Shown in pieces: positions 17,367-23,143 of a stretch of 64,000 bases of DNA. Origin of the DNA: Armatimonadota bacterium (GTDB taxonomy: Bacteria > Armatimonadota > Fimbriimonadia > Fimbriimonadales > Fimbriimonadaceae). The stretch lies in the NCBI GenBank assembly GCA_037138755.1, contig JBAXHT010000001.1:467805-531804 (forward strand). The letters run 5' to 3'. Numbering within the stretch: position 1 is the first letter of the stretch; each line of letters begins with the position of its first letter. A model generated the notes under the pieces. That model was given only the letters and a program-made list of their open reading frames with translations, did no database searches and had not been told where the DNA came from. The position numbers were made by a program, and so were the translations under genes.

Positions 17367-19879
17367 TTGTCTTTGCCCAATACGTACTTATCTAGCCAAG
17401 CGATCCAGCGCGCCCACTGATCCATCAGAGTCTCGCGGGCGATCTGCCCGTGGTCTTCGTAGGGATACATGTAGAGCGCGGCCGGTTTGCCGATGCTCTC
17501 GAGCACATTGAACATCCGTGCCGAGTTGATCGGGTCGGTTCCCACGTTCTGGTCATCCATTCCTGCGTACATGAGTAGTGCCCCGCTCAGGTTCTCGGCA
17601 TAAAGAATCGGAGACATGTCGAGGTACGTACTTCGCGCCTCGAAAAGCGTGCGTTGCTCGCCCTGGAAGGCGATTGGTGTCAGCGTTCGGTTGTAGTTCC
17701 CGGCTCCCGCAATTCCCGCTTTGAAGAATGGAGTGTGGACCATTGCGTTCGCAGTGCTAAACCCGCCGTAACTGTGTCCGCCAAGCGCGAGCTTGGTGCG
17801 GTCGGCGATTCCTCTCGCGTCCAAAGCGTCAATCGTCGCCGACATGTTTTGGCGGAGATGATCGACATAGAAGTCGTTCACTCGAGTTTTTGGTCCTACG
17901 ATCGGACAATCTGGTTCGACGAGTGCCCAGCCGCGCCGGATCAAAAGTGATTTCGGGCTGCCACCTTGGGCCGGGAACATGTTCGGATTGGGATTTCTTA
18001 TCCCTCGGTCGTAGGCGGCTTGATTATCTACTTCGTTTGGATAGAACCAGAAAAAGGCGGGCAGACGATCACCTTCGGCATGCCACTTGGGAGCCGTCAC
18101 CTTGACCCAGAACTTGAATCCATCTGCGCGGGTTACCTGGAACCGATAACGCTTGGCTTCGGTAAGGTCTGGTGCGTAGTCTTTGTTCTGTGTGACCTGT
18201 TTAGTGCGCTTGCCCCCTTCGAAAACGAAGCTGTTGCTCGGCTCCGTTGCCGTTTGGTGATCCACCAGAAGGCGGGTTCCTTCGGCGTTCAAAATGCCAT
18301 CAATCGTCTGGTAAGTCTTCTCTTCGCACTTCCAAAGTAAATCGACTTTCTTCGACTGGGTATCGAAGCTATTCAGGAACGGACGAGTTGGATTCTTCTC
18401 CTCATCCGTCGTGGTGTTCGTTCCTCTGAGCAGGATTTTGGGTGCCGTATCATCCAGTACGCTGACTCCGTTAGCATTAGCCGTAAGAACTGGAGTTCCG
18501 GGATTCTGTTCCGCCCCCTTGTATGACCAGAGAACGGTCTCGGTCATCTCTTTGTTGAGTTCAAATCGCTTAAATTTTGTCTCACCATCCTTGGTTTCGC
18601 TCAGGAAGATCGCAGTTCCCGTTGCGTTCCAGAGTAGACCGCTAAATCCCTGCTCTCGGGTTGCGAGAACAGTCTCACCGTCCTTCGCAAACGGGGCGAC
18701 CCACTTCACCAATTCTTCTGGCTCGCGGGGTGCGGTTGGCGCAACACCTGGTCGCTGTCCTCGACCTTGTTCGTCGTCTTCCGGAGAGAGAATCGGTTGA
18801 GCTGGGACCGAGGAAGGTTTGGCTTTTGTACGTACAAAGTACAAACCGGAGCCGTCCGGCATCCAGTCGACCTGCCTTCGGGCGGCGAGTGGCGTCACCG
18901 GAGGAGTTGTGACCAATGGATCAGGGGCTGGTTCACCGGGGCGAAGTGGCGTCTCTTCCAGCGTTATGAGTGCTTTGCCTGTAGAATCCCAAATTTCTTC
19001 CTTCCGACCGAAGTTGGACGCAGGCACGATGTATGAGAACGGCTTCTGCACCGTCGTTACTCGGAAGAGATTGCCTTTAGGGGCAGGATCCACCGAGGCG
19101 ATCATTGCTGGCTTGCCGACCGGAGCCATTTTGCCATCCAGGTTCACCTTGGCTAGTTGCCCGGTCATGTAGTATTCGAACCGCCGCTGATCGTTCTCAT
19201 TCTGCAGAAGGGTTCGGAACTGGCGAAGGCGATTTTTTCCAGTGTCGGTGACCTGAACTTTTGGCTGGCTCGGCAGTGCGGTTGCAACGGGTTCGTCCCC
19301 TCGATTCGTCGGAACAAAAACTCCAACAACTCCGGAGGAGTCCGAAACCCATTCAGGCGAGACTCGGGTGGCGAGGATCGGCTGTTTGGTCAACTCCCGG
19401 GTTGAGTTCTTCTCTGCGTCATGAACCCAAACCGTCGAAGCTTCCTCGCCATGAACCATATAAAGGAGAAACTTGCCGTTCGGGGACCAAGTCCCTCCGC
19501 TGAGCCACTTCCCTTTCGGCGCCTGAATCGTGCGCGTAGAAAAATCGGCGGCACTTGTCAGGACAATTGACGTCGATGTGCGAAAGGACATCGGACGGGC
19601 TCGATTTGCTACTGGATCGATCATGATTCCCGCCAGGTTCTCGTATTTGGTCGAGATATCGGCGAGGTTGACGGCCCGATCCGCCTGAACCCGTGCGAAC
19701 CAGGTTCGTGTCGCATTCAAGTTCGAGAGGTTAACGTTGAGCTGTCGGGGCTGGTCGAAATACTCGGCAATCTCAGCCGGGGGTCTCAAATATGATTCCG
19801 CGTTGATTGGAGTTGGAGCCTGAGGAGCTTTTGCTCCCGCATCGAATTGCAGTGCCAGAACTGCCGCAAAAAAGTGCAT
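17363..19879 (-). CDS. S9 family serine peptidase (prolyl oligopeptidase / glutamyl endopeptidase type)
   Basis: 838 residues with an N-terminal signal peptide (MHFFAAVLALQFDAGAKA). A beta-propeller region covers about residues 60-560; the alpha/beta-hydrolase domain follows. Catalytic Ser in GGHSYGGFS (near residue 700), Asp in YAGMDDQN (about 773) and His in YEDHGQ (about 810). It should cleave peptides outside the cytoplasm. The motif set and length match the group annotated as S9 or glutamyl endopeptidase in Armatimonadota and Bacteroidota. TAAGCT lies six bases before the ATG. It heads the S9-ggt-M24 unit. Confidence 0.9.
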   Translation of the reverse strand: MHFFAAVLALQFDAGAKAPQAPTPINAESYLRPPAEIAEYFDQPRQLNVNLSNLNATRTWFARVQADRAVNLADISTKYENLAGIMIDPVANRARPMSFRTSTSIVLTSAADFSTRTIQAPKGKWLSGGTWSPNGKFLLYMVHGEEASTVWVHDAEKNSTRELTKQPILATRVSPEWVSDSSGVVGVFVPTNRGDEPVATALPSQPKVQVTDTGKNRLRQFRTLLQNENDQRRFEYYMTGQLAKVNLDGKMAPVGKPAMIASVDPAPKGNLFRVTTVQKPFSYIVPASNFGRKEEIWDSTGKALITLEETPLRPGEPAPDPLVTTPPVTPLAARRQVDWMPDGSGLYFVRTKAKPSSVPAQPILSPEDDEQGRGQRPGVAPTAPREPEELVKWVAPFAKDGETVLATREQGFSGLLWNATGTAIFLSETKDGETKFKRFELNKEMTETVLWSYKGAEQNPGTPVLTANANGVSVLDDTAPKILLRGTNTTTDEEKNPTRPFLNSFDTQSKKVDLLWKCEEKTYQTIDGILNAEGTRLLVDHQTATEPSNSFVFEGGKRTKQVTQNKDYAPDLTEAKRYRFQVTRADGFKFWVKVTAPKWHAEGDRLPAFFWFYPNEVDNQAAYDRGIRNPNPNMFPAQGGSPKSLLIRRGWALVEPDCPIVGPKTRVNDFYVDHLRQNMSATIDALDARGIADRTKLALGGHSYGGFSTANAMVHTPFFKAGIAGAGNYNRTLTPIAFQGEQRTLFEARSTYLDMSPILYAENLSGALLMYAGMDDQNVGTDPINSARMFNVLESIGKPAALYMYPYEDHGQIARETLMDQWARWIAWLDKYVLGKDK

Positions 19880-19888
19880 TGCGCTAGC

Positions 19889-20443
19889 TTAATCAATTAC
19901 AGTGACAGTTTTCTCGATTTCTAGGATCCCGTCCACTGTGACGGCAAGTTTTTGGTTTCCATTTTCAATAACCGTCCAACCGCGCTGGGCAAACTGGGGC
20001 CAGATTGCGCCGTTCAAGTCGTGTACAAAGTGCTCGATATCTTTTGGATCGAAACTCTTTTCGGTGCGAAGCAGGTTTCGTTCTAAGTTGACCTCGAGTG
20101 CGCAGGTAAGGCAAACCACTGTCGTGGCTCCAGCTTCTCGAACAAAAAGTTCAATGCTGTCTGGGAACGAGCAGTGCTCGATCACGACTGCAAAACCGGC
20201 ATCCGAGTAAGTGCGTGCGCACTGGCCAGCTGCGATATGTGCCAAGCAGAACTGGCGATGGCACTCCTCGTCGTACCCTTGGGTTGGTTGGCGCAGTCCT
20301 GAGACCACGTATTGGCGGAAGTAGTCAAGGTCAATCCGAAACGCCTTCTCATATCTTTCGGCGAGTGCCTTTGCCGTAGTCGATTTCCCAACTCCGGGCG
20401 CACCGGAGATGAAGAAGATTCGCCCTTTTGGCAAGGCAGGCAT
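19889..20443 (-). CDS. P-loop kinase-like protein (AAA/adenylylsulfate- or shikimate-kinase-like fold)
   Basis: 184 residues. Walker A is FISGAPGVGKSTTAKALAERY near the N-terminus, followed by RIDLDYFRQYV. The later CLTCALEVNLERNLLR resembles the lid and Arg region of small-molecule kinases. Substrate unknown; it is of the size of adenylate-kinase-like or zeta-toxin-like kinases but has no antitoxin partner nearby. The ATG lies 7 nt after TATACT with no ribosome site, so a leaderless mRNA is likely. It is divergent from tRNA-Gln, with which it shares the palindromic -10 element, and ends 10 nt before the S9 peptidase. Confidence 0.75.
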   Translation of the reverse strand: MPALPKGRIFFISGAPGVGKSTTAKALAERYEKAFRIDLDYFRQYVVSGLRQPTQGYDEECHRQFCLAHIAAGQCARTYSDAGFAVVIEHCSFPDSIELFVREAGATTVVCLTCALEVNLERNLLRTEKSFDPKDIEHFVHDLNGAIWPQFAQRGWTVIENGNQKLAVTVDGILEIEKTVTVID

Positions 20444-20450
20444 CGACCGA

Positions 20451-20458
20451 AGTATACT
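20451..20458. promoter_or_regulatory. Palindromic -10 element shared by the kinase gene and tRNA-Gln
   Basis: AGTATACT reads the same on both strands. On the minus strand TATACT precedes the kinase ATG by 7 nt. On the plus strand TATACT (20453-20458) precedes the first base of mature tRNA-Gln by 12 nt, the usual distance for a tRNA promoter. Confidence 0.6.
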
Positions 20459-20470
20459 GTTGGCACGATT

Positions 20471-20544
20471 TGCCGGATCGTCTAATGGCAGGACAGCTGT
20501 TTTTGGTGCAGCACGTCAAGGTTCGAATCCTTGTCCGGCAGCCA
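20471..20544 (+). tRNA. tRNA-Gln (anticodon TTG)
   Basis: The acceptor arm TGCCGGA (20471-20477) pairs with TCCGGCA (20534-20540), followed by discriminator G and an encoded CCA. The D-arm contains CTAATGGCAGG, the anticodon loop is TTTTGGT with TTG at positions 34-36, and the T-arm is AAGGTTCGAATCCTT. All arms fold normally. A decayed copy of this gene lies at 24873-24932. Confidence 0.96.
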
Positions 20545-20552
20545 CTTTTTTG

Positions 20553-20590
20553 AAACCGACCCCCGACTTTTGGGTCGGGGTTTCTTGTTC
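20553..20590 (+). terminator. Intrinsic terminator after tRNA-Gln
   Basis: CCCCGAC (20561-20567) pairs with GTCGGGG (20574-20580) around a TTTTGG loop; an alternative 10-bp pairing AAACCGACCC / GGGTC...TTT is also possible. TTTCTTGTT follows. It lies 9 nt after the tRNA CCA end. Confidence 0.75.
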
Positions 20591-20773
20591 TACTCCCCTT
20601 AAACTCACGCTTACGTTTGCTAACAGACGGCCATCCGTATCAAAAAACAAGGCACGGTACGAACTCGATCCTTGGTCCAGCGCTAAAAACACTGGGTTGA
20701 TGCGCTCATCATGCAGAATCTTTGCCGAAGGAGATTTTTGCGGTAGTGCTGGTTACGGTAGCATCGGAGTTGG

Positions 20774-23143
20774 ATGATGCGAGGCAAAGTCGGTTCGCAA
20801 AAAAAGTTGGTTCGCCGAGCAGGGTTCATTGCGTCTGTCGGCGTTCTGACGTACGGCATCGCCAGCGCCAATTATCCTTCGACGCTTGATTTCGCCTCGG
20901 ACGTAGACCCGATTCTAAGAGCCCATTGCTCACCTTGCCACTACAGCAAAGAGCCCGCCGCTGGCCTCGCGTTTGACCAACTTGCCGGCCTCATGAAGGG
21001 TGGGGTATCCGGCCCCGCGATTGTGACCCGCAACTCGGGGAAGAGTCGGTTGATAAGACGAATATTGGGCCAGGATGGCTTACCGAGAATGCCCATCGGA
21101 TTTAACGCCCTGGCCAACGCCGATATCGCAACCCTTCGAAGTTGGATTGATCAGGGAGCAAAATCATCATCGGCAACTGCCCGACGGACCCATTGGGCCT
21201 ATGTCGTGCCGGTTCGCCCCCCGATTCCGGCTATCAAGCAATCCACATGGGTGCGGAACCCCATCGACTCCTTTGTTCTGTCCACGCTAACGAAAAACGG
21301 GCTGAAACCGTCTCTCGAGGCCGATCGGGCCACCCTGATCCGCCGGGTCACGCTTGACCTCATCGGCCTGCCTCCAACTCCTTTTGAAGTGGATGACTTC
21401 ATGGCCGACCGAAGCCCCGGCGCCTACGAAAGAGTGGTAGACCGACTGCTCGCCAGCAAACACTACGGCGAAAGAATGGCGCTCCCCTGGCTAGATCTTG
21501 CCCGCTATGCCGATAGCAACGGCTTCCAGCAAGAGGGCGACAATCAACAGTACGGTTGGAGAGATTGGGTGGTGAGAGCCATCAACCAAAACATGCCCTT
21601 CGACGAGTTCACCATCGAACAACTCGCCGGAGATTTGCTTCCAAACGCCACCGTGGACCAAATCGTCGCCACCGGATTTAACCGAAACCACATGCTCAAC
21701 GGTGAAGGCGGCGCGATTCCTGAAGAGCAACGGTCGGTCAACCTTTTTGACCGTGTAGATACCACTTCGACCGCTTGGTTGGGTCTCACGATGGCCTGCG
21801 CGCGGTGTCACGACCACAAGTACGACCCCATCTCCCAGCGAGACTACTACCGCATGATGGCGCACTTCAATCAAGTGCCCGAAACCGGGGTGCCTAGCGG
21901 GGGTGGACAGTACCGGATCGCCGATCCAACCGTATACGGTGGTACAAAAGATCAGATAACTCGGCTAGCTGCGGCTGAAAACGAGCTTGCAAAACTCAAA
22001 ACTGCCAATCCACCCGATAAGAAACTAATTGCCGCCGCCTCTGAGATTGTAGAAAAACATCGAGCGGAAATGCCCCGAGTGATGGTCATGTCCGACGCCC
22101 AACCCCGAAAAACCTATATCTTCAATCGCGGTAACTATCTGGAACACGGAGAGGAAGTCGAACCGGGCCTGCCCGAGAAGATTGCTCGCGCCACAGTCCC
22201 GGCCAAAAATCGAATGGCGCTTGCCCGATGGATCGTTTCTTCCGAGAACCCGTTGACAGCAAGATTCTTTGTCAATCGAACCTGGCAACTCTTCTTTGGC
22301 CGGGGTTTGGTACGAACCGAAGAGAACTTCGGCGTCAAAGGTGAACCGCCTACCCATCCCGAACTTCTCGATTGGCTTGCCGTCGAGTTTCGCGAGCGAG
22401 GCTGGGACGTCAAGCGCCTACAGCGCCTCATCGTCACCAGCAGCGCATATCGCCAAAGCTCAAGGGTGACGCCTGAGTTGATTCGACGCGATCCCGAGAA
22501 CCGACTCCTTGCTCGTGGTGCGAGATTCCGCCTTCCGTCGCCGATCCTAAGGGATATTGCCCTGAAATCCAGCGGGCTGCTCAATCCGGCCATGGGCGGA
22601 AAACCCGTCTATCCTTACCAGCCGAAGGAGATTTGGGACGGCCTAGCCATCACTCTAGAGCGAGACTTCAAGTACCCGCAGTCCAAGGGAGCTGATAATT
22701 ATCGTCGAAGCATCTACACCTTCTGGCGCCGTACCGCTGCCCCCGGCAACATGTTCGATGCCTCGTCCCGGCAGGTCTGCACTGTGCGAAATAGCGTTAC
22801 CTCGTCCCCCCTCCATGCCCTCACGATGCTGAACGACATCACTTGGGTCGAAGCTGGCCGCGGATTAGCCCAGCAGGTCCTTAAACTTCCCGCCCGCAGT
22901 CGGCTCAGTGAAGCGTTTCGCCGAGTTTGCACCCGAAGACCCAACGCCGCCGAGCTAAGCGTACTGGAGCGGAGCCTGGCTCGGTCACAGCAATACTTCG
23001 AGTCAAATCCTGCCGAAGTTGCCCCATTTCTTGCCGTCGGAGACCTTCCGGTGGACCCGAAACTTAACCCCGTCGAAGTCGCGGCCTATGCCAGCGTTTG
23101 CCTGGCTATCTACAACCTGGACGAGGCCATGACCCGCGAATGA
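20774..23143 (+). CDS. PSD1 protein with cytochrome c-like, DUF1549 and DUF1553 domains
   Basis: 789 residues. A signal/anchor covers about residues 12-32. A haem-binding CSPCH is at about residues 52-56 in the planctomycete-type cytochrome c domain (PSCyt1). The DUF1549 domain follows (PIDSFVLSTL, LTLDLIGLPPTPFEVDDF, CARCHDHKYDPI, which adds a second CxxCH) and then DUF1553 (NRTWQLFFGRGLVRTEENFGVKGEPPTHPELLDWLA). Such proteins are exported, and their role is unproven, often assumed to be in polysaccharide breakdown or electron transfer. The DUF1501 gene starts on its stop codon (ATGA). The pair lies between the intact and the decayed tRNA-Gln. Confidence 0.9.
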   Translation: MMRGKVGSQKKLVRRAGFIASVGVLTYGIASANYPSTLDFASDVDPILRAHCSPCHYSKEPAAGLAFDQLAGLMKGGVSGPAIVTRNSGKSRLIRRILGQDGLPRMPIGFNALANADIATLRSWIDQGAKSSSATARRTHWAYVVPVRPPIPAIKQSTWVRNPIDSFVLSTLTKNGLKPSLEADRATLIRRVTLDLIGLPPTPFEVDDFMADRSPGAYERVVDRLLASKHYGERMALPWLDLARYADSNGFQQEGDNQQYGWRDWVVRAINQNMPFDEFTIEQLAGDLLPNATVDQIVATGFNRNHMLNGEGGAIPEEQRSVNLFDRVDTTSTAWLGLTMACARCHDHKYDPISQRDYYRMMAHFNQVPETGVPSGGGQYRIADPTVYGGTKDQITRLAAAENELAKLKTANPPDKKLIAAASEIVEKHRAEMPRVMVMSDAQPRKTYIFNRGNYLEHGEEVEPGLPEKIARATVPAKNRMALARWIVSSENPLTARFFVNRTWQLFFGRGLVRTEENFGVKGEPPTHPELLDWLAVEFRERGWDVKRLQRLIVTSSAYRQSSRVTPELIRRDPENRLLARGARFRLPSPILRDIALKSSGLLNPAMGGKPVYPYQPKEIWDGLAITLERDFKYPQSKGADNYRRSIYTFWRRTAAPGNMFDASSRQVCTVRNSVTSSPLHALTMLNDITWVEAGRGLAQQVLKLPARSRLSEAFRRVCTRRPNAAELSVLERSLARSQQYFESNPAEVAPFLAVGDLPVDPKLNPVEVAAYASVCLAIYNLDEAMTRE

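Follow-up and report, generated by a model that had tools for sequence, protein, structure and literature searches.

The 8-bp palindrome AGTATACT, which separates a gene for tRNA-Gln from a divergent gene for a small P-loop kinase-like protein (hereafter called the kinase gene) in the 64-kb stretch of DNA analysed here (the window), from a bacterium related to Fimbriimonas, is probably a bidirectional core promoter from which both the tRNA and a leaderless kinase mRNA would be transcribed. It contains two TATACT hexamers, which share the whole of TATA (Table 1). From sequence we infer both transcription starts, activity in the two directions and any interference between them.

Table 1 Features at the tRNA-Gln/kinase locus (positions in the window)
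Feature	Position	Strand	Basis or remark
Shared core of predicted two-way promoter, AGTATACT	20451..20458	.	Palindrome, counts, -10 model
Predicted -10 box of tRNA-Gln, TATACT	20453..20458	+	12 nt before mature tRNA
Predicted -10 box of kinase gene, TATACT	20451..20456	-	7 nt before ATG
Small kinase-like P-loop protein of 184 aa (AAA_18/AAA_33-type)	20443..19889	-	ORF, Pfam
Inferred kinase transcription start	20443..20444	-	Canonical -10 spacing and leaderless register; at the A of ATG or 1 nt before it
tRNA-Gln, anticodon TTG	20471..20544	+	ARAGORN; Rfam agrees
Possible tRNA -35, TTGGCA	20428..20433	+	5/6 match, 19-bp spacer (longer than usual)
Inferred tRNA-Gln transcription start	20465	+	Canonical -10 spacing; leader about 6 nt
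Intrinsic-terminator-like stem-loop and T run, 3' of tRNA-Gln	20561..20580	+	Sequence scan

The initial annotation described the site as one palindromic -10 hexamer. It is indeed self-complementary, and its distances of 7 nt from the protein start and 12 nt from mature tRNA-Gln were confirmed from the ORF and with ARAGORN, but the palindrome, which is perfect, extends over 8 bp and holds two overlapping hexamers instead of one. The A at 20451 on the plus strand is the source of the T at position 6 of the minus-strand hexamer. This single base distinguishes the minus from the plus reading, so interference between the tRNA and the mRNA should be testable by one change.

AGTATACT occurs once in the window (mean of the shuffled sequences 0.12) and at just two places in the 3.27-Mb genome, compared with 14 times in the reversed-letter control. 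The second genomic copy (G000 C2:465193; L087, about 1501) is in an AT-rich region, 30 nt before an ATG of a 118-codon ORF. With a -10 model built from 51 leaderless boxes of the same genome, from which the kinase box had been left out, AGTATACT scored 9.7 on each strand, within the top quarter of these boxes, and it was the only 8-mer in 464 kb to reach its score on both strands. The scores of GGTATACT were 10.1 forward and 2.7 in reverse. Overlapping -10 elements which can be read both ways, one mark of a bidirectional promoter, are thus present at AGTATACT. A generic sigma-70 scan did not pick up the site, whose 19-bp spacer and absent minus-strand -35 exceed the rule of the scan.

On the plus strand, the tRNA-Gln is the sole Gln tRNA with a TTG anticodon among the tRNAs found in the genome. 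Of 44 tRNAs surveyed, 43 had a best -10 candidate and one had none; the commonest distances from the box to the mature tRNA were 11-13 nt, a range into which the 12 nt of tRNA-Gln fits. The possible -35, TTGGCA, sits within the first codons of the kinase gene. Most tRNA boxes in the genome have the form GG-TAnnnT (the two bases preceding the 31 boxes that scored at least 7 were GG in 21, GC in 3, CA in 3, AG in 2 and GA in 2), so that the reverse reading is broken at most other tRNA boxes. tRNA-Gln has an A where most carry G, and the same A was present at 1 of the 30 other tRNA boxes. Among the 43 tRNA genes, it was only at tRNA-Gln that TAnnnT could be read in reverse in the TATA-sharing register, and only there that an ATG or GTG ORF start lay within 10 nt of the box.

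The kinase ATG is the first ATG, GTG or TTG past the upstream stop codon. Nothing but TCGGTCG separates it from the box, and there is no Shine-Dalgarno leader. The predicted protein matched AAA_18, AAA_33, Zeta_toxin and CPT, all general P-loop families, just over the Pfam cut-offs, whereas every NCBIfam match was far under cut-off and gave no named family; comparison with solved structures returned two weak matches. No -35-like hexamer was found at 15-20 bp on the minus strand (best 2/6), nor any other box fitting the -10 pattern, which is stricter than TAnnnT, on that strand at 20380-20800. Downstream on the minus strand, the ATG of a gene for an S9 peptidase follows a TAAGCT box at a distance of 6 nt (19879-19891), and the first three bases of this box are the stop codon of the kinase gene.

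The TANNNT at 7 nt from the kinase ATG agrees with the register of leaderless genes, which peaks at 6-7 nt genome-wide. This was assessed in the window and 20 further stretches of 20 kb from the same genome (L088-L107, G000), together 464 kb with 347 genes that were called mechanically, making their start choices approximate, and 2,575 internal in-frame ATG or GTG codons served as the control. At 6 or 7 nt, TAnnnT preceded the starts of 52 of the 347 genes and 21 of the 2,575 control codons, and GTAnnnT at 6 and 7 nt preceded 29 and 8 genes, compared with 0.1 and 0.5 when scaled from the controls. A genome of the same genus, G008, had TAnnnT at these distances in 6 of 71 genes and 4 of 565 controls (p 2e-4; a smaller sample), and the likewise smaller samples of G026, G029 and G041 had it in 2 of 54 (p 0.04), 3 of 68 (p 0.06) and 3 of 65 genes (p 0.02), respectively. 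In 50 kb of E. coli it was found before none of 39 genes. Leaderless mRNAs therefore look common in this genome by their sequence signal, and the kinase gene looks like a member of the class. No clear -35 was visible at the 51 leaderless boxes used for the model, so the missing -35 on the kinase side is no objection. TAnnnT was also present 5-8 nt before a plausible start of kinase homologues that are not beside tRNA-Gln (L009, L010, L012, L014, L020, L021 and L025). If true, this would point to widespread leaderless expression in Fimbriimonas. Searches of the openly licensed literature, PMC10783764 included, turned up no dedicated report on leaderless Armatimonadota (Armatimonadetes) or Fimbriimonas promoters, which is weak evidence of absence.

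The kinase gene, tRNA-Gln and AGTATACT are in the same places in the genomes of two close congeners, G016 and G001. All three are also present in a third, G002, where the distance to the ATG is 10 nt and the leader would be short, and TTGGCA was not found at the corresponding place there. The window's genome (G000) and G016 agree at all 27 intergenic bases, compared with 24 of 69 fourfold sites in the kinase gene; G001 agrees with G000 at each of the 15 positions that span the ATG, the spacer and the palindrome, compared with 22 of 66 fourfold sites, and differs in the tRNA leader. Box and ATG are separated by the same 7 nt in all three genomes, although their silent sites are close to random (about 35% identity). 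A back-translated search of the genome contigs gave three loci. In G007 the kinase gene is farther off, apparently with a box of its own (TATCCT, 6 nt before a GTG), and the reverse reading is broken in the tRNA box, TGTATACT. G017, G018 and G012 have a different divergent gene, whose distance from the reverse hexamer is 6, 7 and 9 nt, respectively; the partner fragment in G018 is Creatinase_N by Pfam, and the partners in G017 and G012 were judged by eye to be alike. CCGAAGTATACT persists in G003 and G010, where no kinase gene was found beside the tRNA. At these loci (L049 and L048, respectively) an S9-like peptidase gene is next to tRNA-Gln, and, judged by eye, kinase-like N-terminal residues apparently persist in frame past the palindrome, suggesting that the kinase gene has been lost.

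The perfect 8-bp symmetry and its conservation could also be those of a site for a dimeric regulator, with no pair of -10 boxes at all. This is extremely improbable, since the sequence and both distances are typical of -10 boxes, and the orthologous sites AGTATAAT or GGTATAAT have retained the -10 and lost the symmetry. In addition, the 20 congener genomes contain 26 AGTATACT sites in total, 8 of them at tRNA-Gln, and these gave no sign of a regulon.

The relation between the reverse hexamer, that is, the A at its decisive position, and abutting starts was examined at 32 tRNA-Gln loci, 30 from one search and two from another. The reverse hexamer was intact at 7 of 7 loci with a divergent start within 10 nt that was judged real and at 9 of the 25 others (Fisher 0.003), or, with a mechanical 10-nt rule, at 8 of 9 and 8 of 23 loci (Fisher 0.008). 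Within the genus alone (20 genomes) the A was present in 7 of 7 compared with 7 of 13 (Fisher 0.044), and all three tests treat related genomes as independent. The seven A-bearing abutting loci comprise two kinds of partner gene, and in an RpoB tree of 21 genomes (without G007 and G009) the genomes with the A did not form a single clade, several forks being weakly supported. Seven congeners keep the A without a convincing abutting start. In G003, G009 and G010 the next gene is at least 74 nt away, and in G004, G005, G013 and G019 the partner is 31-32 nt off and seems to have a CATACT of its own, although in G013 there is also a GTG in frame 10 nt away. By their sequences these seven count against a strict link between box and partner.

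They also favour a reading in which the box is the promoter of tRNA-Gln only, the palindrome results incidentally from a lineage-specific -10 of the form AGTATAMT at this tRNA, and the kinase gene is weakly transcribed or transcribed from elsewhere. Of 20 congeners, 14 have retained the A at tRNA-Gln, these seven among them, and the retention of CCGAAGTATACT in the two genomes with no kinase gene beside the tRNA agrees with such an incidental origin. We nevertheless regard this reading as rather unlikely, because the position of the kinase start matches the leaderless register exactly, homologues elsewhere carry such boxes, few other tRNA boxes in the genome have the A, the 7 nt from box to ATG have stayed the same while silent sites were nearly randomised, and the minus strand offers no alternative box that fits the stricter pattern. 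The proposal of the initial annotation that one -10 is common to both genes is in this way supported by the leaderless register, the tRNA register and conservation.

In the preferred reading, that of a bidirectional core promoter, the housekeeping RNA polymerase would melt the shared TATA in either orientation. The plus-strand TATACT would direct transcription of tRNA-Gln with its short leader, and the minus-strand TATACT that of a kinase mRNA beginning at the ATG or 1 nt before it. The upstream half of each promoter would lie inside the other gene, the -35 region of the tRNA in kinase codons and that of the kinase gene in the 5' end of the tRNA, so that the kinase side would be without a -35 and would rely on the -10 alone, as seems to hold for the leaderless genes of this genome. 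A single polymerase would be bound at any time, and the drop in kinase output would depend on occupancy by tRNA transcription. The earlier claim that polymerase binds in one direction at a time can be kept in so far as steric exclusion of simultaneous polymerases at AGTATACT follows from the geometry, and PMC12825309 states for bidirectional promoters that a bound polymerase sterically excludes a second. Such exclusion need not amount to meaningful competition between tRNA-Gln and the kinase gene.

Such competition would be central to a dedicated switch, in which transcription of tRNA-Gln, high in fast growth, silences the kinase gene, which comes on when tRNA synthesis falls. The overlap does force mutual exclusion, and the promoter of the sole TTG-anticodon Gln tRNA found in the genome may be busy. 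In PMC12825309, competition at five E. coli bidirectional promoters was negligible at their low basal activity and emerged only on strong activation of one direction. In the relatives, moreover, the partner is either the kinase gene or a creatinase-N-type peptidase gene, and is distant or absent in others. Since the partner genes differ in this way, we consider a dedicated switch between tRNA and kinase improbable and favour an architectural origin over a purpose-built one.

None of the 78 divergent ORF neighbours in the 464-kb sample had one box in common. Six of the 78 had a leaderless box on each side within 150 nt, and in four of these (L097, L101, L089 and L104) the starts of the divergent leaderless pair were 31-52 nt apart, with two separate -10 boxes back to back. 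At these four loci, too, the polymerases should be mutually exclusive.

A family-wide search for one -10 common to two ATG starts covered 61 genomes, of which only four were of the same genus, and gave 6 sites with distances of 6 and 6 nt and 2 sites with 6 and 7 nt, compared with 1 and 1 in the reversed-letter control. Long ORFs in both directions were present at 2 of the 8 sites, both in G024 (L200 and L204, about 1501-1526), where a single ANTATANT box is placed at exactly 6 nt from the ATG on either side. The first pair consists of two genes with 3-keto-disaccharide hydrolase domains (Pfam, both) facing away from each other, and the other of an inositol-phosphatase-family gene opposite a long ORF. 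The congener G077 matched the minus-strand protein of the first pair only weakly, at 39% identity over part of the query, and gave a 57% match for the second, beside which no divergent start was found; this comparison thus gave no evidence that the G024 pairs are conserved. From these sequences, the tRNA-Gln/kinase site is apparently not the only case of one shared box in the family.

A more general idea, possible and put forward here tentatively, is that in Fimbriimonas and its family, where many promoters appear to consist of a bare -10 touching a start codon, one box may make up the entire promoter region of a divergent gene pair, as a minimal two-way switch at which neighbours can dock. 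The kinase gene would have docked in one lineage and a creatinase-N-type peptidase gene in others, the two protein pairs of G024 would be alike in this respect, and the output of the docked gene would be set by the occupancy of the tRNA promoter. If the tRNA-Gln/kinase site is indeed a two-way promoter, it would be a natural promoter with very few parts, namely a box of 8 bp and, for the protein gene, no leader of its own.

Both two-way promoters and leaderless genes adjacent to a -10 are already known. As in the leaderless genes of Deinococcus-Thermus (PMC12340547; PMC3160421), TANNNT stands 6-7 bp before the start codon, and for the -10-adjacent ORFs of Deinococcus bases 1, 2 and 6 are essential and the -10 alone is sufficient (Zhong et al., PMC12340547). 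The present genome differs in belonging to another phylum, and the present box in being common to divergent genes; the terms divergent, bidirectional and palindrome were looked for in PMC12340547 and not found. Among the openly licensed papers listed by a search, none is by title and abstract about a leaderless bidirectional promoter at a start codon, again weak evidence of absence. There is also a likeness to the bidirectional promoters of E. coli and other prokaryotes described by Warman, Grainger and colleagues (PMC12825309, PMC10268837), which have a symmetric -10 read both ways, close divergent starts and exclusion. The favoured separation of starts there is 18 bp, with 10 and 23 also common (PMC12825309), and divergent starts were counted within a window of 7-25 bp; the separation of 21-22 bp predicted here is inside that window and is not the favoured one. 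Unlike those promoters, the present site shares the whole of TATA, would serve a tRNA and a leaderless mRNA, is without a -35 on one side, and has a two-way activity that is predicted. By its sequence features, the tRNA-Gln/kinase site is best read as a very compact promoter of the two-way kind recently described by these authors, here for a leaderless gene and a tRNA gene.
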